Assembly (NCBI RefSeq): GCF_016808095.1
Contig: NC_068971.1
Location: forward strand, 22,866,501 to 22,930,500
DNA length: 64,000 nt
Direction of reading: 5' to 3'
From: Vigna angularis
Taxonomy: Eukaryota > Streptophyta > Magnoliopsida > Fabales > Fabaceae
This document shows, one piece after another, positions 30,239-56,866 of this stretch. A model generated the notes under the pieces. The model was given only the letters and a program-made list of their open reading frames with translations. It was not told where the DNA came from and did not search any database. How positions within the stretch are numbered: position 1 is the first letter of the stretch; every line of letters starts with the position of its first letter. Both the position numbers and the translations under genes were made by a program.

Positions 30239-31261
30239 TGTCGGAACAATCGGTACCGGTATAGAGTTGCACAGCGGAATAAAATATTTAGAAAGCGTGT
30301 TACGGTCACAAATTAAGTTATGATGGTCTGTTTTAGAAAATCAATTTTCTTAGAGAAAATTTAACAAACACTTGATGTGCGTAAAACAGTAATGAGTGTA
30401 AGGAATAGAAAAATTGACACACTGAATTTTTATCCTGGTTCGATTCAAAAGAATCTACGTCCAGTTGTTAATCACTATAAAAAGTGATTAACGATTTCAC
30501 TAAAATCAGTTTCAACAAAGTACAATTAAGAGTGAATAAAAAGCATAAATATAAAACCTTCCTTCGACCAACGAAATGGAAGCAAGCAATCTACACTTTC
30601 CTTCTAATCCAGAACAGTGCAGAACAGTTCTTCCTTCGACCAACGAACCGGATGCCAACTCGAAGAGAATAACTCCGACCTTTGACTCACAAAGCGAGAG
30701 CTTCTCCTTTTCACGAGACTTGACAGTGCAATGAACTAGCTTATGGAACTTCCTCAGATAACACTGTATTCTCACAAGCTCAGTAAAAATTCTAGGAGTT
30801 TTGGAACTCACCTATATAGCCCACTAATCTAATTTCGCAAAGATGAATTATAACTGCCGCAGATAATCGATTATTGTTAGTGCTAATCGATTATTCAAGT
30901 CCGTTAGAGGGTTTTCAAAAAAGTGATAATCGATTATCCTGAGGAATAATTGATTATTTCAGTGACTTTGGCAGTTCTCATCAGAACTGTGATAATCGAT
31001 TATTTGGAGTAATAATCGATTATTCCAGTGCAACGAGGTTTTTTAGAATGGCTCAGGATAATCGATTATTGCTTCTAATAATCGATTAAATGCGTAGCAG
31101 TTCTAAGAATACGAATTTTTCTAAGTATTACATGTTTAAAGCTTTTCCTAATACATTTATGATCTACAAATTGCTTTTAAAACAACTATAACAATCTACA
31201 TCTTTCAGCATCATCAAAACTATTTATCTTCAAATTTACCAATGCTTCTTCATTGGTAACA
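30239..31261 (-). mobile_element. Solo LTR (1,023 bp) inserted in CNL exon 1, TSD GTACA
   Basis: Bounded by TGTCGGAACAATCGG and CATTGGTAACA, with GTACA on both sides (30234-30238 and 31262-31266). Removing it rejoins the frame as E-R-Y-T-A-I, the expected order for this receptor family. The minus orientation is inferred from the CTGGTTCGATTC block, which sits as in the minus-oriented LTR at 14268, and from TTTTGATGATG near its minus-strand start. It carries at least seven TAATCGATTA-type motifs between 30861 and 31090. No internal retrotransposon sequence is present. Confidence 0.92.
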
Positions 31262-40228: not shown

Positions 40229-42294
40229 TGTTGGGATAAAGTTAAATTTTAGGGTTTTATTAATAATTTTGTTTAAATCTTATTTTATAAGTCTTTGGGT
40301 ATAGTAATATTTAGTTTGATTTGATAGAGATAAAATAGGGATACGTAGTTATGATTTTCGGTTTATCTAGGTACAATATTATTTTATGATAGATTAAACA
40401 TATTTTACTTTTAAGATAGTTGATATTTTATTTTTATTCCCCGTAATATTGTAAGTGTTACGGCTATTTAAAGCCTTTCAATTATCAATGAATAGCAAGA
40501 CTCAATTTCAGGAAAATAACAAAGTGCGTATATTGTGAGATTTTCCTATCAGTGGTATCAGAGCTTTATGCTTTGAGTACCGAGAGAGAAAGAGAGAGAG
40601 AGGAGAGAGTCAAACACCGTGAGAGAAAAAGTGAGTGCTTGAATTTTTTTTTGTGAGAGAAATGACAAAGGTAGTCAATGGGATGAGTGTGCCACAATTG
40701 TCAGAAAATACCAATTACGATAATTGGTCTTTGCAAATGAAGGTTCTTCTTGGATCCCAAGATGTATGGGACATAATGGAGGACGGGTACAATGAACCCG
40801 CAGATGATGAGCATCAGATAGTGAACCAGATTGCTGCATTGAAAAAGACACAAGTGAAAGACAGATCGAATTTGTACTTTCTGTATAATGCAATGGATGA
40901 ATCTGGATTCGAGAAAATAGCTAATGCAAAGTTAGCAAAAGAAGCATGGGAAATTCTGAAGGTGGCATACAAAGGAGATACCCGCGTGAAGCAGGTTCGA
41001 GTAAAAGCTCTCAGAAGAGAGTTTGAACATATGGAGATTGATGAAAATGAGGGAGTTGTCGAGTTTATAACTCGAGTGCAAAAGATGTCCAACCAACTCG
41101 AAATAAACGGAGAAGAGGTTCCTCCTAACCGGGTTGCGGAAAAGATCTTGAGAAATTTGACGGATGATTTTGAAAGTATCGTGGTCACTATTGAACATAC
41201 AAAGGATTTGTCAACTCTCACTGTGGAGGAGTTAGCTGGGTCATTAAAAGCCCACAAATTGAGGAAGAAAAAGAAAAAGAGGAAACCCGATGATCAAGCA
41301 CTATAGGTACAGTTTGAGTCGAATAAATCTCGGATTACTCAGAGCTGAGGTCCTGGCGGTAGATGGCGAGGAGAACGGGGACGAGGTGGACGTGGCCGAG
41401 GTAATTTTCGGAATGATAATGAAGAGCAAACCGGTCAACAGAATTGGTGTGACCGAGGACAAGGAAAAGGCTGAGGAGATCTGTTAGGAGTTGAGTGTTT
41501 TAAGTGTGGCAAGTATGGCCACTATGCAAACGAGTGTAAATCAAGCAAGTGCTACAACTGTGGCAAGGTTGGTCATATTGCAAAGTATTGCAAGACCGAG
41601 ACAAAGGGGGAGACAAATCTTGTTTCTGAATCTTGTTGATGGCAAAGAGCTCGGATGCAATGGACATAGAGAGCCCAATCCCAACAATGGGTGAAGTGAT
41701 CTTAGTAAAGGATGCAACAATTGTGGAGAAGGAAAACTTGGAGAAAGAACTCAAACAAAAAAATGAAGAGATTCAACGGATAGGGAGGCTTCTAGATGAA
41801 GCTAATGAAATTATGAATAAACAGGGGTTGAGCTTGAGAAGCTGAAGAAGGCGACTCTTGAAAGGAAGAGAAAACATCTAGTGTTCTTGAACCAGATAAA
41901 AATAGGGAAGAAGAAGATGAAGAAGAGATGAAGGCTGATGAGATTTCTACCAACTCGGTATGGTATCTAGATACTTGGGCAAGCAATCATATGTGTGGAA
42001 ACAAGAACTTCTTTTATAAACTCACCAAGGTGGAGGCCAAATTTATGTCTTTTGGAGATGACTCCAAGGTGGCCGTGAAAGGGCGTGGAACAATCCGACA
42101 TATGCAGAAGAATGGACGGGTTGGAGAGATTAGGGATGTTTACTATGTTCCGGAGCTGAAGAGCAATATTTTAAGCATGAGTCAGATAATTGAAAAAGGT
42201 AATTCAATTTTTATGAAAAATCAGGTAATGTATTTAAAGGATAAGCATGGTCGTCTAACAACCCAGGTAAAAGCAAAGAAGAACCGGTTGTATG
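40229..42294 (+). mobile_element. Truncated Ty1/copia retrotransposon (5' LTR, gag, protease region)
   Basis: The 5' LTR (40229-40551) begins TGTTGGGATAAAG and ends CCTATCA. After one base comes TGGTATCAGAGC (40553-40564), the primer-binding site complementary to initiator Met tRNA. Gag, zinc knuckles and the protease/pre-integrase start follow in order. The element stops at 42294, where a gypsy-like LTR begins; integrase, reverse transcriptase, RNase H and the 3' LTR were not found. Confidence 0.88.
40662..41306 (+). pseudogene. Copia gag (UBN2/retrotran_gag type)
   Basis: The frame from ATG 40662 contains NYDNWSLQMKVLLGSQDVWD, AWEILKVAYKGD, VRVKALRREFEHMEIDENEG and EELAGSLKAHKLRKKKKK, the classic copia capsid domain. 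The frame ends at 41304-41306. In another frame two CCHC knuckles follow (CFKCGKYGHYANEC at about 41496 and CYNCGKVGHIAKYC at about 41559), so a frameshift separates capsid from nucleocapsid. Its role in a live element is to form the virus-like particle. Confidence 0.88.
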
Positions 42295-42299
42295 TGTAA
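41928..42299 (+). pseudogene. Copia pol start: protease and pre-integrase region
   Basis: Contains VWYLDTWASNHMCGNK and later VPELKSNILSMSQIIEKG, the pattern of copia aspartic protease followed by the GAG-pre-integrase segment. The active-site triplet normally reads D-S/T-G; here it is D-T-W, so the protease would be inactive. Coding stops where the next LTR (TGTAAGACCCG) begins. Confidence 0.85.
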
Positions 42300-42496
42300 G
42301 ACCCGTAATAAATAAAATATTTATTGATTTTTAGTATTTTATTTATTAGTGTGATTTATACTATTACGTGATTTAACTCGGTGTGTTAGTGGTTGATGAA
42401 ATTGTGGTAGAGATCAATAGGGATCTATTTGAATTTAGTTTTATTATTAAATTTTCAGAAAACCTTATACAGTAATATATGTTATGGTTAAAAAAA
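42295..42496 (+). mobile_element. Start of a gypsy-like LTR, split by the MULE
   Basis: TGTAAGACCCG is a common LTR start of plant Ty3/gypsy (Tekay-like) elements. Removing the 14.4-kb MULE and one copy of its 9-bp duplication joins this to 56867 onward without a break. The LTR interrupts the copia element at 42294. Its right end could not be fixed. Confidence 0.55.
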
Positions 42497-43037
42497 GGAA
42501 AATGTTATCTTGACAACGGAATTTTGACAACAATCTAACAACGCCAGGTGTCGTCTTCCTATTGGCTGACTAAAGTGAAAGAAAATGAGGAAGAGGGTAT
42601 GAGGCGGAGGGGTATTTTTGGAAGAAGATTTGTAAATTTTGAGAAATGCGTTTGGCGGTTTAATTTTGGCATAACGTTCGCACCATTCCTTCTTCTCCTC
42701 TCTCCTCCATCTTAAACGTTCGTTCTCGTCTGTGTCTCTGTCCTCGCTCTCTCCTCCATCTTAAAAGTTCGTTGTTTTCTATGTCTTCGTACTCGGCTCC
42801 GTCCTCCATCTTGACCCTTTCTTATTCTCTCGCTTTGTGGTTGGAAGGCGGGTGCAGTTTTGTGTGTGGTTACTGCTGTGTGTGGTTACTTTTGTGTGCC
42901 GGCCGTGGACCATTGTCGTTGCTGTGGTAAGTTAAACTGGCCGAGCCCTCACATTCTGTTTTACATATCGTTTTTGCTGTTTCATTAACCTTAATGATAT
43001 AACGAGTGTGGATTGTTATTTTGTTAGGGAAGTTTCA

Positions 43038-45983
43038 ATGGAAGGGAAAAACCGAAGTGTAAGAAAAATTACAATTAATTTATTATAGATTATTTATTAT
43101 CGTATGAATTGTAGTTTTTAATCAAGTTATAATCATTTTTTTGTAGTGGCGGCTTCTTATCTCGATGGACTCATCGATCATTATTGAAATGAATCGTTTA
43201 CTACAAAAGTGTCATGTGGAGCGCATTAGGATGACTCCATTTATGTGGTGTTTGAATATTAATAACCCTGTGGAGGTGAATTTGAAATTAGTGAAGGTTA
43301 TGGTTTGTAGGTGGGCCGGACATGATAATAGTTTTAGAGTGAGTCAACAATTGGTGCCCTTTTCAGTTATTGATGTGTTAATGAGCCTATGTTTAGAAAG
43401 AGGTGGTTTAGAGATTCCGTTTGATGAAGTAGTTGTTGGAATGGTTGGTGAAATGTTCAAATAAAAAAGTATCAGTTTGAAGGATTTGACGGACATGTTT
43501 AATGTAATTGTGCATGATAATGACATTGATGTTGATGTAGTATGTAGGTTATATATATTAGTTTGTTTGGTTGTTTTTTATTTTCCTAGGAAATCAAGGC
43601 GTGTTTGTAACATGCCTTTTGTAGTGTTAGATGACTTAGACAGTTTGTGTCTATACGATTGGTGCACCGGTGTACATAATCATATTGTACAAAATTTAAA
43701 TAAATGTAAGAAGAAAATTATGACAAGAGATATCGCGCATTCACTCACTCTTAGTGGCAATGTGGCAGTGTTACAGGTAACATGATTTATAGTTGATTAT
43801 TTTGATGTAGTGAAGAACATTGTCAATTAGGTTTGATGAAATAATATTATGATATTGTAGGCTTGGGCGGTTGAAAGACTTTCTTTGCATGGTCATGCTT
43901 CACACAGGTTTTTCCCGCGCATAATGCGATGGTTCCCATATAAAGCAAGCACTGAAAAAATTGAACATATATTTAAGACCGGAGATGTAAGTGCTTTGAC
44001 TTTTGTGATTATTTATGTAAAAATTGATTGTCTTATTTGTGAAAATATGTTGTGTGATAATGGTGTAGTTAAATCTGGAGTGGTATGTAAGTAAGGAGGA
44101 TCGTCATCGGCCGGAAATCCGTGCAGCTTTCCACATGGATGAGGGAGGGATGAGTGAAGGATCCAGCACTAAAGGACCCAAGCTTGAGGAAGATGATGAC
44201 GAAAGCTCTGATGACGGCACATGGGAAGTAGGTGCCGAGGAGAGATTGAGGAAAAACAATGAAGGACTCAGAGCATTGAATGCCAAGATTGGAGTTCTTA
44301 CTAGGGAGTTAATTGAGATTTGTGAAACTCCAATCTTTACCGTAAAAGATGCATGTGGTAGTGATGAAGAAGTTGGTGGCGGAGTTGATGAAGCACCTGA
44401 AGTTGGGGGTGACCAAGAGCCTGAAGTTGGTGGTGATGGTAATTCAGTTGATGACCCTCTAGGTGCAGATACGGAAGCAAGAGGGGAGGATAAAACCTCA
44501 TATGAAGATGAGATAGTTTCAAGAAGTGATGAAAAAATTGTTTTTATTGAAATCGACGATGATGGTGATGAAGTCCAACCTGAGGTCGTCCCATTGGTTA
44601 TCCCCCCATTGCGCAATTTTGCTGGGGATCCAAGGACCACTGTTGATGTAGACCAATTGTATAGAGCAGTAAGCATCAGAGAGATCACTATATACAAGTA
44701 TTTGGTGTGAACTGTAGCTATGGTTGGCCAATCTGTTTTCAATGTGATTGACTAATATTTATATGTTTAGGGTTGTAAGCGAGATAATTGGGCAAACCTT
44801 GAGCACGACTTCATTTTACACTTTGGCCCCGATGAAATACGTTGATAACATGGTTAGTATTCTTACATTTCTTTGTGTTTGATGTTGTAGTTTATGTTAG
44901 TAAAGTGGAATTTTTTTATTGTGTAGGTGGTGTTATTTGCTTGTACCATGTTTATGTACTTTGAGAAAAGGTTGTGCGGTGTTGTTAAGAGGATTCATTT
45001 TAGTCCATTATACTCGGTAAATAAAATTTGATATTGTATTTTTGATTAAGATGAATAAAGTTTTTTTGATTGATTTTGGATTGATGATTTTGAAATTGTC
45101 CACAGCACAATATTCTTACAGATTATAGGAAACGTCCCCAAAATCGTCATGTATTCACGCTTCATAACTATCAGTTATCTGCGTTGCGATCATTTTGGAC
45201 TTGGAGACTTTGGCACAGCTGACTTTGTGAGTAACCTTTAATGTGCAATATTTATGTAGTTTTGGGTCGGAAATGTGTTATTGATATTTTTTTGACTGTT
45301 TGTAGTTGTTTATGCCATTTGTCCACGATGATCACTGGTGGTGTTATTCAGTGAAATTGAGTTCATTAGAGATATTTGTGATTGACTCATTGGGTAAGGG
45401 GATCAGAGACCGGAAAAGGATAGACACAGCTGTTGTAAGATTCTACACTTTTTATTGTTGATGACCCTGTGATTGTTAGATTACACTGTATTGTTGAAGC
45501 TTTTTTTGTAATTGTTTACTTCTAGGCTGAAAATATGGCACGGTTTTTTTGCCTATTGATGAATAGACCGGAAGGTAGTATTGCTCCTTTGACTGTTAAA
45601 CAAGCAAATATCTCATCCCAACCAAACCTGTAAGTTTTTTGAATTGTACTGCTGTACTATATTGTGTTGTGTTCAATAAATGTTTATCATTAATTTAATG
45701 TGGTGGCTATATTATTTAAGGCATGATTGTGGAGTGATAATGTTGAAAGCAATGGAAATTTGGGATGGAGATGACAAATACAACGGAAAAAGCATGCCTC
45801 AATATACAACCGTAAGTAGCAATTGTGTTTGTTAAGATTATCACATGTGTTGGTTTGTAATGGGGAAATTGTTGGTTTCAGGAGGACCTGCTTGGGATCA
45901 GAAAGAAGTATGTATGTGACTGGATCCTGGACAACGAGAACATAAGACGAATGGAAGCCATAGAGCTATATGACATTTTTTAG
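43038..45983 (+). pseudogene. Ulp1-like (C48) cysteine protease gene of the MULE, multi-exon, with two lesions
   Basis: Readable exons: 43038-43058, 43147-43776, 43861-43986, 44069 to about 44700 (acidic, coiled-coil-like), about 44780-44852, 44927-45016, 45106 to about 45233, 45306-45434, 45526-45629, 45721-45811 and 45882-45983. The N-terminal part resembles the DUF1985/plant-mobile-domain-like region of transposon Ulp1 genes. The C-terminal protease keeps HWWCYSV (His), FVIDS (Asp), SSQPN (Gln) and HDCGVIM (Cys), so the whole catalytic set is present. Ulp1 proteases remove SUMO from proteins; transposon-borne copies may act on host regulators, but this is unproven. Lesions: TAA at 43462-43464 inside exon 2 and an extra base in the T run near 45190, after which the frame reads GDFGTADF. 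These may be decay in this copy or assembly errors. The boundary near 44700-44780 is uncertain. Confidence 0.82.
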
Positions 45984-46345
45984 GATTGGTTACCCATGAA
46001 AAATTTGTTCTTGTAACACAACATGTTTATATATGTACATAATGGAAGTTGATAATGTAGACATTGTTTATGTAATAAGATTATTGGTTGGAATTTGAAT
46101 TCAATTTTTTTGACGTTGTGTTTGTTTTAATGAATAAATGTTTTATTGAAAAAATCAGGCACCTTTGTAATAAGTATTCGAATAGTAAGCGAAGGTTTAA
46201 TAAGTGAAATTAAGTGTGGTTATTGCAAGGGAGTTGACGAAGTTCTGAGTTCGGGTGGTGCAAAAAGGAAATTATAATCGTTTACAGTGGGTTAGTAAAG
46301 AGTTACGGGACAATACTGTGTGTTTTGTACACAAAAGAGGATGAT
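45984..46345. other. MULE spacer before the left repeat array
   Basis: Likely 3' UTR and terminator region of the Ulp1-like gene. A lone half-site TAATCGTTTACA at about 46276 resembles the arm of the array hairpins. Confidence 0.4.
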
Positions 46346-48143
46346 GTAATCGTTTACACCCCCCTTGTAAACGATTACGCGAGAGAAAATCCTGTTTTGT
46401 ACAGAAAGTTCACCTGAGGTAGTCAGTCAGGATAACGTGGGTGACCAGTGACCAAAGTAGTATTTTTCAGTGACATCTGCACATGTGTCTGTGAAGGTGG
46501 AGGTGCTTGAGTGTTGGTAGATGGTCGGGGGTGATGTTAGGTGACCCCAAGCAGTGTGGAAGAACCCAATCTGAGTGGGGGGAGCAATGTGTGCAAGGGT
46601 TGAGTGATGCTGCTCAAAATACACTGCTGTAATCGTTTACACCCCCCTTGTAAACGATTACCCGAGAGAAATTCCTGTTTTGTACATAAACTTCAACTGA
46701 GGTAGCCAGTCAGGATAACGTGGGTGACCAGTGACCAAAGCAGTATTTTTCAGTGACATCTGCACATGTGTCTGTGAAGGTGGAGGTGTTTGAGTGTTGG
46801 TAGATGGTCGGGGGTGATGTTAGGTGACCCCAAGCAGTGTGGAAGAACCCAATCTGAGTGGGGGGAGCAATGTGTGCAAGGGCTGAGTGATGCTGCTCAA
46901 AATACACTACTGTAATCGTTTACACCCCCCTTGTAAACGATTACGCGAGAGAAATTCCATATTTGTACAGAAACTTCAATTGAGGTAGCCAGTGAGGATA
47001 ACGTGGGTGACCATTGACCAAAGCAGTATTTTTCAGTGACATCTGCGCATGTGTCTGTGAAGGTGCAGGTGTTTGAGTGTTGGTAGATGGTGGGGGGTGA
47101 TGTATGGTGACCCCAAGCAGTGTGGTATAACCCAATCTGAGTTGGGGGAGCAATGTATGCAAGGGCTGAGTGATGCTGCTCAAAATACACTGCTATAATC
47201 GTTTACCTCACCCTTGTAAACGATTACGCGAGAGAAAATCCATATTTGTACAGAAAGTTCAACTGAGGTAGTCAGTGAGGATAACGTGGGTGACCAGTGA
47301 GCAAACCAGTATTTTTCAGTGACATCTACACATGTGTCTGTGAATGTGGAGGTGTTTGAGTGTTGGTAGATGGTGGGGGGTGATGTATGGTGACCCCAAG
47401 CAGTGTGGAAGAACCCAATCTGAGTGGGAGGAGCAATGTGTGCAAGGGCTGAGTGATGCTGCTCAAAATACACTGCTGTAATCGTTTACACCCCCCTTGT
47501 AAACGATTACCCGAGAGAAATTCCTGTTTTGTACAGAAACTTCAACTGAGGTAGCCAGTCAGGATAACGTGGGTGACTAGTGACCAAAGCAGTATTTTTC
47601 AGTGACATCTGCACATGTGTCTGTGAAGGTGGAGGTCTATGAGTGTTGGTAGATGGTGAGGGGTGATGTTAGGTGACCCCAAGCAGTGTGGAAGAACCCA
47701 ATCTGAGTAGGGGGAGCAATGTGTGCAAGGGCTGAGTGATGCTGCTCAAAATACACTGGTGTAATCGTTTACACCCCCCTTGTAAACGATTACGCGAGAG
47801 AAAATCCATATTTGTACTGAAAGTTCAACTGAGGTACTCAGTGAGGATAACGTGGGTGACCAGTGAGCAAACCAGTATTTTTCAGTGACATCTGCACATG
47901 TGTGTGTGAAGGTGGAGGTCTATGAGTGTTGGGAGATGATGGTGGGTGATGTTAGGTGACACCAAGCAGTGGGGAAGAACCCATTCTGAGTGGGGAAACA
48001 AGTTGGGGAAGGGCTGATTGATGCTGCTCAAAATACACTGGTGTAACCGTTTACACCCCACTTGTAAACGATTACGCGAGAGAAAATCCATATTTGTACA
48101 CAAAGGTCAACTCAGGTAGTCAGTCAGGATAACATGGGTGACC
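46346..48143. repeat. Left array: six 283-bp tandem repeats plus a partial, each with a perfect hairpin
   Basis: Hairpins of the form GTAATCGTTTACA - CCCCCCT - TGTAAACGATTAC start at 46346, 46629, 46912, 47195 (arm variant), 47478, 47761 and 48043, a near-constant 283-bp period. The ~250 bp between hairpins are highly similar in all units (GAGAGAAA, AGGATAACGTGGGTGACC, TTTTTCAGTGACATCTGCAC, GGTGACCCCAAGCAGTGTGG, GATGCTGCTCAAAATACACT). Long minus-strand frames run through the units, but each only restates the repeat. The array may be a transposase-binding or insulating region. Confidence 0.95.
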
Positions 48144-48341
48144 CCCAAGCATTTTATAACAGAATTAACTTCAAAACATTTGTATAACACAATCAACCAC
48201 ATCATAAAACAAGATTAATAGTTGTTAACGTACACATGATTCACAACAATAATACATTGCAGGTTTTGAATATTACAGTTATCCATTACATAGTTATAAT
48301 CGTCTTCAAATATTAATATGACAGTTATCCAAATCCCACTA

Positions 48342-49312
48342 CTAGTTGTCTGGTTGTTTGGACGTTGATGGTTGGTCAGTTGGAGGTACAAATTTGCGGA
48401 GGATGTCATCCACATTGAGTTTCTTCTCTGCCCACATAGGGAGTCGAATGACAGGTTTTGGGGTGTCCTTAACGAGGTCAATTGTTGGAGGACAAACATT
48501 AGCTGGAAAAACCTTCACTATAGAGCGATACGTAATATTGAGGTAGTAGTTTTGCGGACATGTAGCGAAAGGGTGGACCTAAATGTACACACCAAATTAG
48601 TGATAGGAACATTGAAAGACAAACAAGATAATTATGCAATTTAAGTACAAAATGGAAGGGTTACAAGATTCAGTAGCATAACAGAACCAACTCCGATATT
48701 GTCTGCAAATTGAGGATCTTCAAGAACTTTCTTGTGCAACGAAGCCTTCATCGTGGCAGTTGGGTCCTTCAAACATATAATAAGTTATGAATCTACCATA
48801 ACATGTACTGTTGTACAATACAGGAAAGGCAATAATACCTTAACAGTCAACTGCATATCTCCCAACCCATTTGGCTTGCACTCTTTCAATATGCAAGCAA
48901 CAAATGGAAGGACCTCTAGTGATTTTGCGTCTTGGAGGGAGTTGACGTTTTCGAATTTGCCATCCGTGACCAAACCTCCAATAACAAAAAATGAATGAAA
49001 ACAGATTAGAACTGGTGAAAGTAATAATTATGTTTGAACCGTGTATTTCATTGACTGTACCATACCGTGATGTTCAATAAACATCTGTGCCCATTTCCAA
49101 GCATTGGAGTTGAAATCTCGTTCATAAGTAGCCTGAGCAACATCAGCAGCAAATTCTTGTGTGGATTTGGGTTGTTCTGTTCCCGTTCTATTCAAGAAAG
49201 CTACTTGGATGTTACCTGCAGGACCAGGTATAAGCAATGCCGACGCATCGCATTTTTTCAAAAACGATTCAAGGACATCATCATCATAAACAAGGTCTTG
49301 CCATGCATCCAT
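48342..49312 (-). CDS. HROB-like (homologous recombination OB-fold, DUF4539-like) protein inside the MULE
   Basis: Four exons with good GT/AG borders on the minus strand: 49312-49066, 48975-48839, 48766-48665 and 48578-48342 (TAG). They total 723 nt, 240 residues, with no stop or frame change. Exon 1 has LLIPGPAGNIQVAFLN, the proline-glycine motif seen in HROB proteins. Exons 2-4 form an OB-fold-like stretch: FVACILKECKPNGLGDMQLT, DPTATMKASLHKKVLED, GVGSVMLLNL, then YYLNITYRSIVKVF. In animals HROB recruits the MCM8-MCM9 helicase for repair DNA synthesis in homologous recombination; plants have homologues of about 300 residues or more. This copy is shorter. The family call rests on remembered motif order, not a search. 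It is transcribed away from the FAR1-type gene, with a shared 600-bp spacer as likely promoter. Confidence 0.68.
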
Positions 49313-49915
49313 GATTAAGCTGAAATTTTCAGTCCAAATAGAAAGACCACGTTAAGAAGGCAAGATGTATGATGAGATGTTACTTCAAAGTAACTTGATG
49401 AAATGAAGTAGCATTAAATGTGGAGATATGTCTGATTTGATAGGAAATCTTTAAAAGTGAAAAGCATTGATTGTGGGTTAAGAGAGAGAGAAACTTTATG
49501 CTGACAAACATTGAATGCATGGTTTGCGTGGGTTACCAAATTAGTGCTTCAGCTGCCCAACCATCAACTTTCGCGTACCAAAGACGTACATCAACGTCCA
49601 AAGTTAACTTTTCCCTACATTAACCAACCACCTCCACAAAACTTACTTTCTTCTTCATTAAAGACAACGGATAGAGGCAGCTTGGGAAGTTTGGTGAGAA
49701 CCACAGAAGTTCATTTATGGTGGACGTAAATGTTGAAGAGGATGTTGGTTAGGAACATTTGACCTTCATTAAAGGGCACCACCATTCCAACACGGTACAT
49801 ATTACTTAAGTTTTTCCAAATGGGTTTATGTACATTTTATTTTTCACTAGACAGTGGTAAATTTCGTAAGTTTTATGACTGAAAACGATGTGCTTCATCT
49901 TTAAAGCTGGGTGTA
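49313..49915. other. Bidirectional spacer between HROB-like and transposase genes
   Basis: The only space upstream of both divergent genes; it should hold both promoters. No certain TATA box or binding site could be chosen. A hexamer-rich purine run (AGAGAGAGAGAAAC) is at about 49481. Confidence 0.4.
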
Positions 49916-52337
49916 ATGTCCAAGCACACAATGAATGTGGATGAAGCCAATGACTGTACTGACAATGTTGATGACCGTAATGAAAGTTTATTGGATATGG
50001 ACCCAACAGTGCAAATGTGTTTTGAATCAATGATTGAAGCTAGAACCTTTTACACAAACTACGCCATTAGATGTGGGTTTGTCGTGCGGACTAGAACTTC
50101 TAAAAAAGATAAAGACAACAACGTGTACTACTTGAGATTAGTTTGTTCAAGGGAAGGGAAATATGTGTCTTCCGTCAAACCTGTGGTCAAAACACTTCCA
50201 AGTCAAACTAACCAATGTCCTGCTGAGATAACCATTGCAAAGAAGGACGACAAGTGTTTTATAAGAACCGTTGTTCTGGACCACAACCATGATCTTTGCC
50301 CGAATAACTCCAACCTTTTTGCAGCGAATAGAAAGTTAAGCATGCAAGAAAAACACACGTTGGAGGTGAACCATGATGCTGGAGTTAGGTTAAATAAGAG
50401 TTTCCTTAGCATTGTCAACGATGCCGGGGGCTATGAAAACATGGACTTCGTCGAGCGGGACGCGAGAAACTACATTGTCCAACACAGAAGATCTTTATGT
50501 AAGGATGGTGATGGTCAGACACTCCTACGATACTTTTCTTCAATGAAAGATACAAATAACGAGTTCTTCTATGACATTACACTCGATGAAGGGAATAAAA
50601 TATGTAGTGTGTTTTGGGCTGATGCAAGAAGTCGTGCTGCATGTGAAGAATTTGGTGATGTTGTTTCGTTTGACACAACTTACTTAACAAATAAGTACGA
50701 CATGCCATTTGCACCTTTTGTGGGAGTTAACCATCATGGACACTCCATTTTACTTGGTTGTGGATTGTTGTCTTCGGAAGACACTGACTCATTTGTATGG
50801 TTGTTCCAATGTTGGCTTAGATGCATGCGTAATAAGAGTCCTGAAGGCATTATAACTGATCAATGCAGGGCAATGGCCAACGCTATTGAACAAGTGTTTC
50901 CTAATACGAGGCATAGGTGGTGTTTATGGCACATCCTGAAGAAGTTTCCTGAAAAATTCCACGACTATAGAAATAATGCCGCTATCAAAAGCGAACTACA
51001 TGCGCTTATATATGATTGTGGTTGTCCAACAGAATTTAAAAAGGGTTGGGAGGAACTACTTACAAAACATGGAATCCAGGAAAATGAATGGCTATGTAAT
51101 TTGTACCAAGAGAGACATAAATGGGTTCCGTGTTATTTGAAAAATAAATTTTGGGCAGGCATGTCTACCACTCAGATAAGTGAGGGAATAAATGCTTTTT
51201 TTGATGGATTTATTAATTCCACAACCACTCTTCAACAATTTGTGGTTCAATACGACAATGCTGTTAGAGTAAAGGCCCAAAAGGAAATAGAAGCGGACTT
51301 CTCGTCCATGAACACCACTATTGCATGTGGCTCTCAGTCACCGATTGAGAGACAATTTCAAGTTCAATACACACATGCAAAGTTTGAGGAGGTCCAAACA
51401 GAGTTCCGTTCAAGGATGAATTGTTTCATCAAAGACACCTTAAAGGACGACTTGTGGAACACTTACACTATAAAAGAGGAACGAATGTGGGAAGGTAATC
51501 CTTTACCTGATAAATTTTACAAAGTTCAATTTGATCCCCTCACACAGTCAACCACTTGCTCTTGCCAACTGTTTCAGTTTAGAGGAATTATATGTCGTCA
51601 TTCCCTATTGGTATTTGGTCAAGAAGATGTATACAGTGTTCCCTCAGAATACATTTTGCGGCGTTGGAGCAAAAATATCCGAAGAAGACACACACTAATA
51701 ACAACATCGTATAGTACTTCTAGTAATGACCCACGCATGCAAAGATACAAGATGTTGTGCAAACGTTTTTATGAAATTGCAGAAGTTGCGTGTGAGTCTG
51801 AGGTTGCTACTTCTGAATTGGAAAAAGAAATTCATTGTCTTGGTCAAAAATTTGGTTTCAGTTCATCGATGACAAATAACATCATCAGTCATGCAGGCCA
51901 ACTAAGATACGATACTGGTGCATGCACGTCAATTCCACATACTCCAGTTGGAACATCTGATGTGGTTGTTCACAGTCCTGCAACTGTTAAGCGAAAAGGA
52001 CGTCCACGCACAAACAGGTTGAAGTCCACCGTTGAGAAAAGAACCCAAAGAAGAAAGTCCGCTTCAGGCAGGAAGACTTCAACACCACCCACCCTTCATA
52101 TGGTGAGTCATTAATTACGTTCAAAATATTGATAAAATACTTTAAGTTGTATGAATATAGTTCTAATTAATAATTTTGTTTTTGCAGGAGACAAGGGCAT
52201 GTAATGTTTCTGAACGTGATGACCATGTTCAATTTCACGCGGACTCTATCCAACTATCACAAGATACCGAAATGGGTCATTTAGGATTTATGTCATTGTT
52301 GTTAGCTGTACATAACAATTTCGATAACATTAGTTGA
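49916..52337 (+). CDS. FAR1/FRS-type MULE transposase
   Basis: Exon 1 (49916-52102) runs open for 729 codons to a GT donor at 52103. Exon 2 (52188-52337) adds about 50 residues and ends with TGA. The FAR1 DNA-binding region is at about 35-130 (FESMIEARTFYTNYAIRCGF, CPAEITI, HNHDL). The MULE catalytic domain follows, with Asp253 (SFDTTYL), Asp315 (GIITDQ) and Glu423 (TTQISEGINAFF) as a plausible DDE set. A SWIM zinc finger holds Cys548, Cys550, Cys560 and His562 (CSC...CRH). The tail is basic with KRKGRPRTNR, an AT-hook or nuclear-signal-like motif. The length fits FAR1/Jittery-type transposases. All key residues are intact, so this is probably the active transposase of the element. FAR1/FHY3 host transcription factors derive from the same family; location inside clear MULE ends argues against a domesticated gene here. 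Confidence 0.9.
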
Positions 52338-52459
52338 TAAATACAACTTGTTCAATGTTTATTTGTGAATTTATTAAGTTTTTGTAATTCATAATGCTGG
52401 TGAATGAAATCCAAGTGTTCAATGTTTGGAAACATATAAAGACAGCAAGATACAGTACT

Positions 52460-52492
52460 GTAATCGATTACTACGCAGTCGTAATCGATTAC
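52460..52492. repeat. Hairpin with paired GTAATCGATTAC arms
   Basis: Two self-palindromic copies of GTAATCGATTAC (52460-52471 and 52481-52492) are separated by nine bases, about 160 bp upstream of the next gene. The core resembles the arms of the 283-bp repeat hairpins and the TAATCGATTA motifs of nearby LTRs. Confidence 0.85.
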
Positions 52493-52653
52493 ATAACCCT
52501 GGTGATAACACATAAGTATAAGTACCCATTTACATCACTACATACAGAACGTGTGTGAATTGAAATCGTGATTATAACCGCCCTAGCACGTCCTTCCTCC
52601 AATACTGTTACAAATCCTCAATACTGTGACTGCAAAACCCTAAACACAATTCA

Positions 52654-53833
52654 ATGGGTGATCGTGCAACCAAGAAACAAAAGGCATCTTCTTCCTTTGG
52701 TGGACGTCGACGCCGCTGCAGTCCTACCCCGTCACCATCGTCATTACCTTCAACTCCTACCAATGACCTCTTCTCGTCAGATGAGCAAAAGCACAAATAT
52801 GACTCCCATTTCGTCAATCGTGAAATCTTGGAAAGTAAGTATCTAGAGGATGGTTACTTTGAAGGAAAAAACTTTCAGTTCTATGACATCTTGGCCGAAG
52901 CTGGGCTAACTAAATTTGTCTTCAAGAAGACATTACCACCCAGAATAAGTGAGAGTGTTCTACAGCAACATGTTAATATCAGATACTGGGGTTATTCGAA
53001 GCGAGGTTAAAGGTGTCAAAATTAGGGTTAGCCCTAATCTTTTTCAACAACTGACTGATCTCCCCCCTGATGGTGTTTGTTATGAAGGAAGACTTGTAGA
53101 TGAGTGGAAAGAACAATACGATTCTGTTACTGCAAGGCAACTAGTGTGTAGAGATGATGCAGTCATACAATCCAGAATACTAGCTGGCCACATGAAGGTT
53201 CAACCAAGGATACTTCATTATGTTCTGACTCGAGTTTTAATTCCTCGTACAACCAATATTGGTCAGGCATCCGAAGAGGATATTATGCTCCTATGGGCAT
53301 TTTTAAATTCCATTCAAATTAATTGGGGACATCTTATTAGATATAAGATGAAAAGAGCGTTAAGGGAGAACGCAAAGTTGCCATATCCACATTTGATAAC
53401 CATCTTCATGGAACACTTTGAAGTGCCTACTAACACTGATCCCATTTCAGAAGTTAAGTTCAAGCAAAAAATGGGTAGTGAAGTTGTAGCATCATTTGGT
53501 TATGTGCAAAATGATGATGGAGAATGGGTTCCCAAAGCCAACGCCCCCCATCCCCCCGTACACCAAGGTCAACATCAACAGGGCTCAGATGATGAACAAG
53601 GCAGTTCATCTACAACACTAAATAATGTCATCAACCGCATAGAACAACTTCAGACCTTCGTTGGTACAAGATTTGATGCGTTTGAAACTCGATTCGATGC
53701 CTTTGAAAACAGATTTCAAAACATGGACATCGTCATCACTACAAGGTTTGATGCATTGCAATCGCGCGTTGGGAACATTGAAGAACAACTGCAACAGTTC
53801 AAAAGTGCTTCTCAAAACAATCCTAACACTTAG
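52654..53833 (+). pseudogene. Putative plant-transposon-protein gene (PF20167-like) with one frameshift
   Basis: The first frame (from ATG 52654) has a basic Ser/Pro-rich start and then DSHFVNREILESKYLEDGYF. The second frame (to TAA 53833) continues with VFYSNMLISDTGVIRSEVKG, LILAGHMKV-like text, YVLTRVLIPRTTNIGQASEE and YPHLITIFMEHFEVP, typical of the domain annotated as putative plant transposon protein. The change of frame falls near 52946-52950, where one base is lost or gained. The C-terminus has heptad-like repeats (TRFDAFETRFDAFENRF) suggesting a short coiled coil. Function is unknown; such genes recur in gag-like and MULE contexts. Confidence 0.65.
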
Positions 53834-54044
53834 AATTGGATGTTTAGGCTATATTTTCTGCATTCGAAAAAAACTATGTATCACAGTACCTATTTTCATA
53901 ATTTGAAGTCTTTAATTTAATGAAGTTCCTTATTGTCAATCTTCGTCATTTAATTTGTAATGTTTAATTTATCATAAAATATACAAATTGTCAGTAAAAC
54001 ATCAACAGCACTTACCAAATAATACCTCCCCATCCAAATACAGG

Positions 54045-54860
54045 TGCACTTCTGCCTGAAATGGTCACTAAAAAATACTGGTTTGCTCACTGGTCACCCA
54101 CGTTATCCTCACTGAGTACCTCAGTTGAAGTTTCTTTACAAAACATGAATTTCTCTCGGGTAATCGTTTACAAGGGGGTGTAAACGATTACAGCAGTGTA
54201 TTTTGAGCAGCATCACTCAGCCCTTGCACACATTGCTCCCCCCACTCAGATTGGGTTCTTCCCCACATCTTGGGGTCACCTAACATCACCCTCCACCATC
54301 TACCAACACTCAAACACCTCCACCTTCACAGACACATGTGCAGATGTCACTGAAAAATACTGGTTTGCTCACTGGTCACCCACGTTATCCTCACTGAGTA
54401 CCTCAGTTGAAGTTTCTGTACAAAACAGGAATTTCTCTCGGGTAATCGTTTACAAAGGGGGTGTAAACGATTACAGCAGTGTATTTTGAGCAGCATCACT
54501 CAGCCCTTGCACACATTGCTCCCCCCACTCAGATTGGGTTCTTCCACACTGCTTGGGGTCACCTACCATCACCCCCCACCATCTACCAACACTCAAACAC
54601 CTCCACCTTCATAGACACATGTGCAGAAGTCACTGAAAAATATTGGTTTGCTCACTGGTCACCCACGTTATCCTCACTGACTACCTCAGTTGAACTTTCT
54701 GTACAAAACAGGAATTTCTCTCGCGTAATCGTTTACAAGGGGGGTGTAAACAATTACAGCAATGTATTTTGAGCAGCATCACTCAACCCTTCCCCAACTT
54801 GTTTCCCCACTCAGAATGGGTTCTTCCCCACTGCTTGGGGTCACCTAACATCACCTACTA
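54045..54860. repeat. Right array: three copies of the 283-bp hairpin repeat, inverted
   Basis: Hairpins start at 54160, 54442 and 54725 with the same arms but a G-rich loop, and the whole sequence is the reverse complement of the left array (for example CCAAGCAGTG becomes CACTGCTTGG). Together the arrays flank the HROB-like, transposase and plant-transposon-protein genes as an internal inverted repeat. The third hairpin has one mismatch (AACAATTAC). Confidence 0.95.
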
Positions 54861-55050
54861 CACTGTAAGATCACTGAAACAACAATATATGGTATTGAAA
54901 GTACAAATATGTGACCAAACCAAAATATCAATTTTTGTTTCAGTGAACTATATCCATACAATACACTTTGTTTTCTTAATGTATTTACAATCATCAAATA
55001 CACATATCAATCCTTACACTTTGTTTACATTAATAAACTGAATACAAATA

Positions 55051-56566
55051 TCACTCATTTTTTATTCTAAGCACTACGGTTCCGGTGTATGGAGTCCTAA
55101 GTGCTCTTCCCTTGTAACGCCTGCGCGACCCAACCCTAACATACGTCTTCAAAGGTTGTTGATTTGTGTCAATGTCAGTTGGGGATACAAATCCAGTGTT
55201 CATGGATGATTCTGTACGAGGCACACTTTCTCCACCCTGATCTTTATTTTGTCGTTTTGCCTTCTCTTCAGCCAATTGTGCCTCCAAACCTACAACCCTC
55301 CTTTTAAGTTCTTCAATTAGATATTCGTGTTCCTGTAAGGCACGCATAAAACTTTCTCTTCGATTTCTTTTTTGTATCTTATTTGGTCTTGCTAGGCCAT
55401 CCTTCCTTGTTGGTGTTGGTCTGTATACCTTCTTATCCTTGGTTGAAGCAGCCACATCAACATCATCATCATCAACAACCTGAAATTTAACCATATATTT
55501 CACACTACACAACTTAACTCAATATATAAAAACATAACAAAACTTGAGATAACAAACGACATACTAAACCTGTTTCCATACAACGTTTTACGAATTTGTC
55601 TCCAACACTTCTATTCATCCAATGCAATATTCTTGGAAATTTATCAATTGGACCTTCGGGTGGAACAAAATGCTCAAAAAACCATACCTAACAAAAGTAA
55701 ATCATCTTAGATTGTTCTAAATCACAAAAGAATAAACAAACTATATACATATTACATCAACAACGAATAATTACCTGCAACATGTAAACACAACCATCCA
55801 CGTAAACGTTTGTTGTACCTTTGCCTTTCTTCAAGCCATCTGAAGCTTTGCACAAACTACGTAACAAAAAATGATAAACTAGACTACCCCAACAATAACT
55901 ACCCAAACCACTTAAGTTGTCAACAATATTAAACATTACGGGAAACACTTTTCCACTACGTTTTGGAAATAAAATCTCACATATTCCTACCAATAAGTAA
56001 AGGCTACAAAAATGAGAACAAGGGATTTTTTTCTTGTGTTTTCGCATTAGAAATTTGTATATCGAATTCAAATCCTTTGTTCCTTTCCCTAGGTATTTCA
56101 CACATTCAATGTTTCCCATTTCCTCCTTCAAGTTAATATTTACACCATCTGTACTCAATCCCAACCCTAAATAAAAATCATTTTCATTTATATTCACAAG
56201 TTTATTTCCAACAAAAAAACCACTACTCGAGTCGTCCCACTTACCCAATAACTCACTCAATATATTTCTACCTAGTTTAAGATTTACATTCAAATCTAAA
56301 AACCACGAAAACGGAGTCTTCGCAATCAATGACCGATGCTCCTCTGTCAAGCGTTCGTTCAAAGTACATATATACTTTGTCGAAAAAGAGTGACGAACGG
56401 TCAACTGCATCAACCAAAGTAAAATAAGCACAACTACTAAACCCAAAAACCAAAACAAAAGTAAACCAACCCGAAATCTAAACCCAAACCAAAATAACCA
56501 TGTAACGAAAGGGAACGACAAAGCACTTACCTTCGTCGTCGGACAATGGTCACCGGAACGTTCCAT
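55051..56566 (-). CDS. MULE gene paralogous to the N-terminal part of the Ulp1-like gene (no protease)
   Basis: Exon 1 is 56566-56531 (MERSGDHCPTTK, donor GTAAGT) and exon 2 is 56404-55775. Exon 3 is 55687 to about 55570, and a last exon carries VVDDDDVDVAAS, a basic stretch, a coiled-coil-like helix (FMRALQEHEYLIEELKRRV) and a stop at 55051. Exon 2 (TPFSWFLDLNVNLKLGRN, WDDSSSGFFVGNKLV) aligns with the first large exon of the left gene (TPFMWCLNINN...). The intron after a Leu-Gln pair (MLQ| and VLQ|) is shared, as is the following exon (FPRILHWMNR versus FPRIMRWFPY). It appears to be a divergent duplicate that lost the Ulp1 part. The join from exon 3 to the last exon does not keep phase as I read it, so an exon or base may be missing. 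Function unknown. Confidence 0.65.
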
Positions 56567-56866
56567 TGCGCGCTATAACATCAACCAAAAATACAACCTT
56601 TACGAAATGTAGGGAGCCACCGGCAACACCACGAACAACACACGGTTTCAGAGAAAGAAAACGAAGAAGACGCACCTAAACGTTCGTTCCAACCAAAACG
56701 GATAGGGGTATTTTCGGAATCCCACTTAATAATAAGTCACGTCCTTCCAGTAACACGGTTTTTAAAAAATAAAATTTTTCATTTTCAACCTATCACAATT
56801 CGACACGTGACGTTGTCAAAATTGTGTCAATATAGCGTTGTTAGAATAACGCGGTCCTTAAAAAAA

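Follow-up and report, generated by a model that had tools for sequence, protein, structure and literature searches.

The element described here, a member of a mobile family of Mutator-like elements (MULEs), lies in a window (the whole stretch of DNA analysed, 64,000 nucleotides) of the Vigna angularis genome and has its ends at 42497 and 56857. Its parts run in the order PMD plus ULP1 gene, array, HROB-like gene, FAR1-type transposase, Transposase_32 gene, inverted array and second PMD gene, and the features are as follows.

42488..42496, no strand: left 9-bp target-site duplication TTAAAAAAA, from sequence comparison of both ends
42497..42700, + strand: left terminal region, first bases GGAAAATG, from genome matches starting at base 1
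43165..45993, + strand: outer gene 1, PMD, tail and ULP1/C48 peptidase domain, multi-exon, damaged; exon borders by eye
46275..48143, + strand: left array of six to seven 283-bp units, with GTAATCGTTTAC-N9-GTAAACGATTAC or near variants
48345..49312, - strand: HROB-like OB-fold gene (PF15072), four exons, from a Pfam profile match
49919..52337, + strand: FAR1/MULE/SWIM transposase, exon 1 to 52102 and second exon 52188-52337, junction by eye
52460..52492, + strand: isolated two-arm site GTAATCGATTAC-N9-GTAATCGATTAC, between the transposase and Transposase_32 genes
52654..53833, + strand: Transposase_32 (PF20167) gene, from a Pfam domain search
54064..54881, - strand: right array of about three 283-bp units, opposite in direction to the left array
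55051..56566, - strand: outer gene 2, PMD with variable tail, from the open reading frame and a Pfam domain search
56650..56857, - strand: right terminal region, the right 408 bp having 55 matches in the genome
56858..56866, no strand: right 9-bp target-site duplication TTAAAAAAA, from sequence comparison of both ends

A MULE-type transposase domain and a target duplication of about 9 bp place the element in the MULE superfamily. Perfect 9-bp duplications, differing in sequence, flank all 12 end-to-end copies (the window copy and 11 others) and show that the family is mobile from end to end. In eight copies the duplications are at the ends given by the matches, and in the other four the right ends were shifted by 5, 5, 8 and 73 bases, guided by the duplication. 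The window duplication TTAAAAAAA is of low complexity. The ends are supported apart from it, as the left 404 bp has 49 genome matches, 41 of which start precisely at element base 1, and the 11 other copies have duplications of their own. The terminal inverted repeat (TIR) is imperfect, with a local score of 70; 300 random window pairs averaged 34, and two of these scored higher. With that qualification, the near-symmetric MULE with inverted ends and a perfect 9-bp duplication reported in a preliminary description is confirmed.

The two outer genes face inward and their N-terminal domains are paralogous, with about 25% identity over about 206 residues, as had been described, but the name DUF1985 given to them must be replaced by PMD, the Pfam match. 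The right gene scores 35.6 bits for PMD and the left gene 34.5, just under the cut-off of 34.9, and DUF1985 was unreported for either at E<=1. In deeper relatives a weak DUF1985 lies beneath the PMD, with E of 0.003 and 0.056, below the cut-off. That PMD matches sit around the cut-off, with DUF1985 weak and in deeper relatives only, speaks against a VANC-like reading of these proteins. The C48/ULP1 domain (PF02902) of the left gene scores 27.4 bits against a cut-off of 20.7, and the Pfam domain search did not find it in the right gene. Its H, D and C residues, which we take to be the catalytic triad, are all present in the window copy, and over the 12 copies H is kept in 11 and D and C in all. 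The left gene is damaged in the window copy, with an in-frame stop at 43462-43464 and a frame break near 45195 (by eye). The structure model of the PMD has a pLDDT of 36.7 and is uninformative.

In the core, the transposase exceeds the Pfam cut-offs for its MULE (PF10551, E 4e-36, 124 bits), FAR1 (48 bits) and SWIM domains, and so does the PF20167 gene for its own domain, although in the window copy this gene is damaged by a shift of reading frame near 52949. The HROB-like gene was correctly named, with 70.3 bits for PF15072 against a cut-off of 30.8.

Between homologous ends with their own duplications, the left PMD-ULP1 gene and the right PMD gene are present in 12 of 12 copies, some truncated, the HROB-like gene in 11, some partial, and the transposase and Transposase_32 genes in 10 each. 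Median dN/dS (NG86, over all pairs with dS above 0.05) is 0.37 for the transposase, 0.38 for ULP1, 0.41 for the left and 0.44 for the right PMD, 0.48 for HROB, 0.50 for both the left tail and Transposase_32, and 0.90 for the right tail. For four pairs picked to span two clades the ranges are 0.27-0.37 for the transposase, 0.27-0.34 for ULP1, 0.16-0.27 for the right and 0.29-0.87 for the left PMD, 0.38-0.48 for HROB and 0.34-0.58 for Transposase_32. Transposase_32 gives about 1.1 in two pairs, and most copies have stops. The out-of-frame control is clean (0.93 or more) for the transposase and Transposase_32. It is less clean for ULP1, where two of eight values are 0.42 and 0.50, and for HROB, one shifted frame of which gives 0.57-0.70; the case for HROB therefore leans more on conservation over lineages. 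The set thus recurs between the same ends, with a median dN/dS of 0.37-0.50 for all but the right tail. We find neither a lack of other copies with the same gene set between the same ends nor cargo that is neutral in all copies, dN/dS being below 1 for most parts, and the main inference of the preliminary description, that this is a large self-contained MULE lineage whose cargo may be maintained and not captured at random, therefore holds. A Pack-MULE, carrying captured fragments and no transposase, was considered and rejected, as 10 of the 12 copies have the transposase, accompanied by the same cargo.

With regard to known systems, the VANDAL elements (VANDAL21/Hiun and VANDAL6, with VANA, VANB and VANC) resemble this family in having a MULE transposase with accessory genes, 9-bp duplications with degenerate or no TIRs (weak in adzuki), non-coding tandem arrays of short motifs that differ between lineages, and an accessory protein made of a conserved domain and a variable part. 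They differ in that the adzuki accessory domain is PMD by Pfam and not the DUF1985 of VANC, so that neither window outer gene is a DUF1985-bearing VANC at E<=1, and in that the adzuki transposase has an N-terminal FAR1 domain, a pair of inverted arrays encloses an invertible core, HROB-like and Transposase_32 genes are present, and anti-silencing would be assigned by analogy. In the table within the available part of PMC6446971, the VANDAL group has "PMD and/or DUF in half the members". The FAR1 domain points to the Jittery group (group 36) as given there, rather than to VANDAL; these elements share the N-terminal FAR1 domain and SWIM finger, but the table gives them one ORF and no PMD whereas the adzuki element has five genes. 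Kaonashi/KIU non-TIR MULEs of Arabidopsis, with similar elements in melon, grapevine and rice, also have weak TIRs and join a mobile-element domain to ULP1/C48, as in the adzuki left outer gene. The accessible portion of PMC13317346 places ULP1-bearing VANC/KIU in eudicots and makes no mention of an HROB gene, inverted arrays or core inversion. MULEs with ULP1 and anti-silencing genes being known, the lineage does have precedents. The flipping core and the HROB partnership had gone unnoticed in the preliminary description.

The 283-bp hairpin array and its inverted counterpart, already recognised in the preliminary description, lie at about 46.3-48.14 kb and 54.06-54.88 kb and match each other as inverted arms, the longest 636 nt at 93%. 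The units contain a two-arm near-palindrome, a 33-bp site with two 12-bp arms and a 9-bp spacer, the arm centres being 21 bp (about two DNA turns) apart. In copy C11_12.9 the right array is absent.

The core between the arrays is found in both orientations. Among the 10 copies with a transposase it has the window orientation in six and the opposite in four. In the three trees, built from the left flank (12 rows), the right flank (11) and the core (10), starred branches each time force at least four changes. A single clade of the opposite-orientation copies is rejected on all three (AU p 1.8e-62, 4.3e-6 and 3.2e-4). The closest pair of opposite orientation, C2_16.60 and C7_34.47, is 1.2-1.6% apart. 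The HROB-side and Transposase_32-side gaps move with the core, being 197/205 in C1 (window orientation) and 200/205 in C9 (opposite), and 288/202 in C2 (window) and 285/202 in C7 (opposite). As the edges of core and flanks are conserved in both orientations, the breakpoints are placed inside the arrays, and on these sequences the core, with its HROB-like, transposase and Transposase_32 genes, appears to have been turned repeatedly, most likely by homologous recombination between the arrays. No flipped core was seen at the 21 scorable loci of the deeper transposase lineages (28 loci, 50-72% identity), all having the window orientation, and two deeper elements that we read have no inverted arrays, their longest inverted match being 51 nt at 76%. 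Plastid inverted repeats, herpesvirus isomers and the 2-micron plasmid all have a segment between inverted repeats in both orientations. Those are resident genomes or plasmids, whereas the adzuki case is inside a chromosomal DNA transposon, and natural flips there would show recombination between its inverted arrays.

Our preferred reading, to which we give a probability of about 60%, is a MULE family with recurring cargo, in which the core flips via the inverted arrays and the arrays are candidate binding sites for anti-silencing PMD and PMD-ULP1 proteins. A dimer of a PMD protein would bind the 33-bp site, much as VANC binds the motif arrays of VANDAL elements, and through the arrays the two proteins would counter host silencing of the element. 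The same arrays, being inverted around the core, would allow it to invert, either through host recombination or when the gap left by excision is repaired. The HROB-like protein may owe its retention to the help it gives host repair synthesis of the MCM8-9 type in refilling the excision gap, and flips might be promoted as a by-product. We infer both the binding role of the arrays and the role of HROB. Anti-silencing MULEs are a leading case of transposons using sequence-specific proteins against DNA methylation, and this family adds a version based on PMD and PMD-ULP1 proteins, for which there is a clear candidate binding site (two 12-bp arms, 9-bp spacer). A tighter version, in which anti-silencing arrays double as inverted recombination targets in an element with its own HROB-type factor, so that excision repair both regenerates the element and flips the core, seems to us doubtful. 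If true, flips may switch the outer gene and array that the divergent core promoters face.

The alternative that survives best, and which has a real though lesser chance of being right, is that the core turns during transposition and not in the resting element, gap repair off the sister element after excision switching between the inverted arrays and so giving flips, core losses and changes in array length. It fits C9_13.36, which has no core and abutting arrays, C10_13.2, in which the transposase and Transposase_32 genes are gone from between the arrays, and arrays that, in the nine copies measured, are between 420 and 3533 bp long, with an interruption in the longest. An element-borne HROB-like gene would also suit repair synthesis, HROB and MCM8-9 acting on branched DNA according to the available text of PMC11055865. 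However, these sequence signs equally fit plain inverted-repeat recombination in a resting copy. For the preferred reading, unit similarity is a weakness, as it gives no clear sign that the arrays exchange sequence. Only in the window copy (0.90 against 0.83) and in C9_13.36 (0.93 against 0.89) does the identity between a copy's left and right units clearly surpass that to the closest other copy, and in four of the 11 copies having both arrays it clearly falls below.

A reading of the arrays as passive satellites that bind nothing, with some other task for the PMD and ULP1 genes and a palindrome that merely seeds repeat amplification, is in our view unlikely. Palindromic units could drive their own amplification, most of the 1172 two-arm sites across the genome (reversed control, 0) are outside the 12 copies, and the constant 9-bp spacer, found in 95 of 97 arm pairs with 43 different spacer sequences, is owed in part to the shared ancestry of tandem units. 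Against this, 254 of the 258 exact arms in the 12 copies are outside gene spans, and the layout is repeated with different arms at the isolated site, whose GTAATCGATTAC type makes up nine of these arm pairs. Exact arms number 0 in 49.7 kb of window flank and 0 in 34 kb of the two deeper elements. The arms are also more conserved (0.97 and 0.94) than the unit mean of 0.86 over 144 units; among 13-bp windows the second ranks at the 92nd percentile, which is not extreme. In a relative at 61% identity the corresponding place is taken by another array, of 224 bp, and published VANC systems have lineage-specific non-coding motif arrays, VANC binding short motifs in tandem repeats and removing methylation (PMC5735166).

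That the HROB-like gene is a captured host fragment and mere hitch-hiker is improbable. Pieces of host genes are frequent in MULEs (PMC6446971, in the part available), five of the 11 copies having the gene show stops among aligned codons, and the four-pair dN/dS is just moderately low, but presence in 11 of 12 copies argues otherwise, as does the same divergent place in the two elements read with transposases 51-61% identical, where the first exon is 47-59% identical. More widely, an HROB match lies in divergent orientation within 3.5 kb at 48 of the 61 transposase loci, including ones whose transposase is as little as 51% identical. Of 71 places found with the first exon, 47 have a scored transposase in that position, where 0.02 would be expected. 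HROB is thus, as judged from sequence, an old partner of the transposase across lineages, which would bear on how MULE excision gaps are refilled. It is not bound to flipping itself, as it is also in lineages never seen flipped. For the Vigna relative P0009 an OB fold is predicted (mean pLDDT 63, with residues 91-190 at 78-89), and the model matches the OB folds of RPA, Teb1, SSB and POT1, with low whole-chain TM-scores.

Inverted repeats are a classic source of assembly errors, and the copies, trees, flips and dN/dS values all come from one adzuki assembly, in which inverted arrays of 0.4-3.5 kb might let the core be joined either way, but this is the least probable account of the flips, as all four opposite-orientation copies have perfect target duplications, one of them (C11_19.8) has a left array of just 420 bp, and units within an array differ by about 6-15% and are therefore not interchangeable to an assembler. 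The recurring flips bear on pangenome work, where inversion calls within such elements may be real. Also against assembly error, in a wider scan of loci at which both outer genes were seen, their orientation was concordant at 26 of 27 (17 window, 9 opposite), and at the one discordant locus the PMD gene is 16.6 kb off and adjoins another element.

The element lies at positions 42497-56857 of the window (14,361 bp) and is flanked by two copies of TTAAAAAAA. From left to right it consists of:

left end
(+) PMD and ULP1 gene, the left outer gene (PMD-L/ULP1)
(+) 283-bp array
(-) HROB-like gene
(+) transposase gene
(+) Transposase_32 gene
(-) 283-bp array
(-) PMD gene, the right outer gene (PMD-R)
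right end

We refer to the three genes between the arrays as the core. In the adzuki bean assembly (G000, 448 Mb in 33 contigs, the window being C2:22866501-22930500) the left end used as a query (404 bp) has 49 matches, of which 41 start at its first base, and the right end (408 bp) has 55. Twelve copies, including that in the window, were read end to end and make up the set used here, and at least eight further end pairs exist among the end matches. All 12 have perfect 9-bp duplications, the sequence being different each time, in eight at the ends given by the matches; in the other four the duplication guided a shift of the right end, by 5, 5, 8 and 73 bases. The element belongs to a mobile family. 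A copy at C5:10499378 (left end 97%) was excluded from the set as only its left part was located in 20 kb, and a neighbouring element at locus L015 was left out of the counts. By eye there is a Copia-like gag-pol fragment at window 41862-42299 (+), immediately upstream of the insertion site.

MULEs as such are a known kind, and so are their ULP1 and PMD cargo and their motif arrays. Both outer genes are present in all 12 copies, truncated in some, as is the left array (12/12), with the right array in 11. The HROB-like gene is in 11 copies and the transposase and Transposase_32 genes are in ten each, several being partial, and copy C10_13.2 retains a piece of HROB. In C9_13.36 (G000 C9:13356999-13364976; 7,978 bp with a perfect duplication) the whole core is missing and the two arrays abut, and this is possibly a non-autonomous form.

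Table. NG86 dN/dS for each part: median of all pairs with dS >0.05; range for four hand-picked pairs spanning two clades; shifted-frame control. Tails are the parts that follow the PMD domain in the outer genes, in the left gene ahead of the ULP1 domain.
Transposase: 0.37; 0.27-0.37; at least 0.93
ULP1: 0.38; 0.27-0.34; minimum 0.42
PMD-L: 0.41; 0.29-0.87; at least 0.83
PMD-R: 0.44; 0.16-0.27 (below the all-pairs median); at least 0.91 where defined
HROB: 0.48; 0.38-0.48; minimum 0.57
Left tail: 0.50; 0.41-0.52; minimum 0.66
Transposase_32: 0.50; 0.34-0.58; at least 0.93
Right tail: 0.90; 0.47-1.27; minimum 0.53

The preliminary description proposed that the cargo may be maintained and not captured at random, and the analysis bears this out: the same cargo recurs, both in copies that share their ends and in old lineages, and the medians are 0.37-0.50 for all parts except the right tail. 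Single-pair maxima are 1.1, and 1.55 for the right tail. Most copies have stop codons, as expected for old insertions. The window copy carries damage in its left and Transposase_32 genes, and the aligned codons of its transposase and HROB-like genes are free of stops.

The HROB-like gene matches PF15072 (70 bits), and our searches of the open-licence literature turned up no MULE described as carrying HROB. P0009, a Vigna protein 69% identical to its product, has a predicted OB fold (mean pLDDT 63, with 78-89 over residues 91-190), and the model matches RPA, Teb1, SSB and POT1 at E about 1e-3 or better. The HROB alignment had no match at E<=1 when the PDB was searched by sequence. Scoring covered 150 of 260 HROB candidates, 61 of 483 transposase candidates, and 150 of 650 and 150 of 619 in two further candidate sets, and the pairing and orientation counts refer to scored, listed matches only. 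On that basis 48 of 61 loci have an HROB match in divergent orientation no more than 3.5 kb from the start of the transposase, one of the 48 being a later exon. By transposase identity the pairing is 29/33 at 73% or more, 10/17 at 60-72% and 9/11 at 50-59% among the matches listed. Counted the other way, 47 of the 71 HROB first-exon places among those listed have a transposase alongside, against 0.02 expected. In a protein collection there are 48 HROB-like relatives, and all 47 of those named are from Vigna, the search reaching only proteins with short exact words in common. These sequence comparisons point to a long-standing partnership of transposase and HROB-like gene. The gene could instead be a captured fragment of a host gene that hitch-hikes with the element; the low shifted-frame control for HROB has raised our estimate of this, and with the pairing as it stands we think it unlikely.

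The core is found in both orientations. In six of the ten transposase-bearing copies it lies as in the window (W: the window copy, C1_32.48, C2_16.60, C6_5.55, C6_23.10 and C11_12.9) and in four it is flipped (F: C9_14.33, C11_19.8, C5_5.03 and C7_34.47). Trees were built for the core and for each flank; in none of them do the F copies form one clade, and the starred branches give at least four changes of orientation; the rows for C9_14.33, C6_5.55 and C6_23.10 exclude nested inserts, C10_13.2 is absent from the core tree and C11_12.9 from the right-flank tree. The gaps on the HROB and Transposase_32 sides are 197/205 (C1, W) as against 200/205 (C9, F), and 288/202 (C2, W) as against 285/202 (C7, F). 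Core edges thus move with the core and flank edges stay with the flanks, which places the breakpoints inside the arrays. We found no report of inversion of a MULE core in the open-licence literature.

In a wider scan against both outer genes there were 33 transposase loci of at least 73% identity among the matches listed. The two sides agree at 26 (17 W and 9 F), six could be scored from one side only (4 W and 2 F; five on PMD-R alone, 3 W and 2 F, and one on ULP1 alone, W), and one is discordant, its PMD gene being 16.6 kb away and adjoining another element. At nine loci in the scan an outer gene is more than 15 kb off and nested or neighbouring elements may intervene, and two loci at C9:10.55 Mb resemble a duplication and are counted twice. 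At 50-72% identity 21 of the 28 loci listed are scorable and all 21 are W. On PMD-R alone F accounts for 9 of 24 loci in the higher group versus 0 of 21 in the lower (Fisher p 0.002, relatedness ignored), with the split at 73% chosen after the table was seen and the lowest F locus at 78%. At G000 C8:19518893-19537658 two adjacent elements within 20 kb are both F by the nearer outer gene.

The flips could be errors of assembly, which we consider quite improbable. Left and right arrays of one copy have an identity of 0.84-0.93; the window copy and C9_13.36 are the only two in which this clearly exceeds the identity to the nearest other copy. The closest relative of the 144 array units is in the same array for 92, the opposite array for 23 and another copy for 29. 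Unit similarity gives no clear sign that a copy's two arrays exchange sequence. This weak signal, together with the HROB frame control, led us to rate the main explanation lower, and both assembly error and a hitch-hiking HROB higher. We rule out that a smaller element inserted repeatedly into a larger one, as core and flank edges keep the spacing of their subfamily in both orientations.

In the deeper lineages a relative with 61% transposase identity shares the plan PMD/ULP1, HROB, transposase, PMD, and in that lineage an ORF without a Pfam match above cut-off occupies the Transposase_32 place (locus L037:6036-6428). In a 51% relative a PMD/ULP1 gene was looked for in the 8 kb adjoining HROB and not found. 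Inverted arrays are absent from the two deeper elements read; in one of the two a 224-bp array stands alone between ULP1 and HROB. Chance gene capture of the Pack-MULE type is ruled out by the recurrence of the cargo.

The consensus array unit contains GTAATCGTTTAC-N9-GTAAACGATTAC. Of 258 exact arms in the 12 copies, 254 are outside gene spans, taken to include left-gene introns (101 kb outside and 89 kb inside), and there are none in 49.7 kb of window flank or in 34 kb of the two deeper elements. A 9-bp spacer separates the arms in 95 of the 97 neighbouring pairs, and an 8-bp spacer in the other two; there are 43 spacer sequences, and nine of the 97 pairs have GTAATCGATTAC arms. Arm conservation is 0.97 and 0.94 compared with 0.86 overall (144 units), the 99th and 92nd percentiles of 13-bp windows. 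Shared descent accounts for part of the spacer constancy, and a site away from the arrays, at 52460-52492, speaks for something beyond it. The genome has 1172 exact two-arm sites with 3-14 spacer bases permitted (reversed control 0), and those among the matches listed, all on C1, span 33 bp. This is far more than 12 copies explain, so there are probably many truncated or non-autonomous relatives. The sole literature match to the 14-mer TGTAATCGATTACA concerns Staphylococcus. Window 30864-31091 holds a second, different short array (period near 66 bp), with the two-arm layout of the 283-bp units and different arms, paired ATAATCGATTAT about 8-9 bp apart.

Our main explanation, to which we give a probability of about 0.6, joins recurring cargo, a core turned by array recombination and arrays that serve as anti-silencing binding sites. 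According to PMC5735166 and PMC10398659, VANC proteins bind short motifs in VANDAL tandem repeats and strip methylation there, and a review (PMC13317346) has ULP1-bearing VANC genes (KIU) acting likewise, with ULP1 strongly conserved in eudicots. A table in PMC6446971 shows PMD genes adjoining plant MULE transposases, often antisense, with no PMD entry for the FAR1-type group, and neither HROB nor OB-fold occurs in that paper. By analogy PMD and PMD-ULP1 proteins would bind the two-arm site as a dimer, the arm centres being 21 bp or two turns apart, and would keep the element open. With two arrays in inverted order the core could turn round, either through in-place recombination or through a change of template during gap repair. 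HROB is a partner of the MCM8-9 helicase at branched DNA (PMC11055865), and the relative carried by the element is likely kept for excision-gap repair. Its role would not be specific to flipping, as W-only lineages carry it too.

The predicted PMD structure is uninformative (pLDDT 36.7). By eye the right-hand PMD tails (window 55051-55518 (-), L037:7350-7841 and L038:6617-7225, the last two in deeper relatives) vary but have in common a basic stretch, then (S/T)P(Y/W)T close to the end. The elements concerned have a PMD identity of only 33-44%, and the shared feature is a candidate DNA-contact or nuclear signal.
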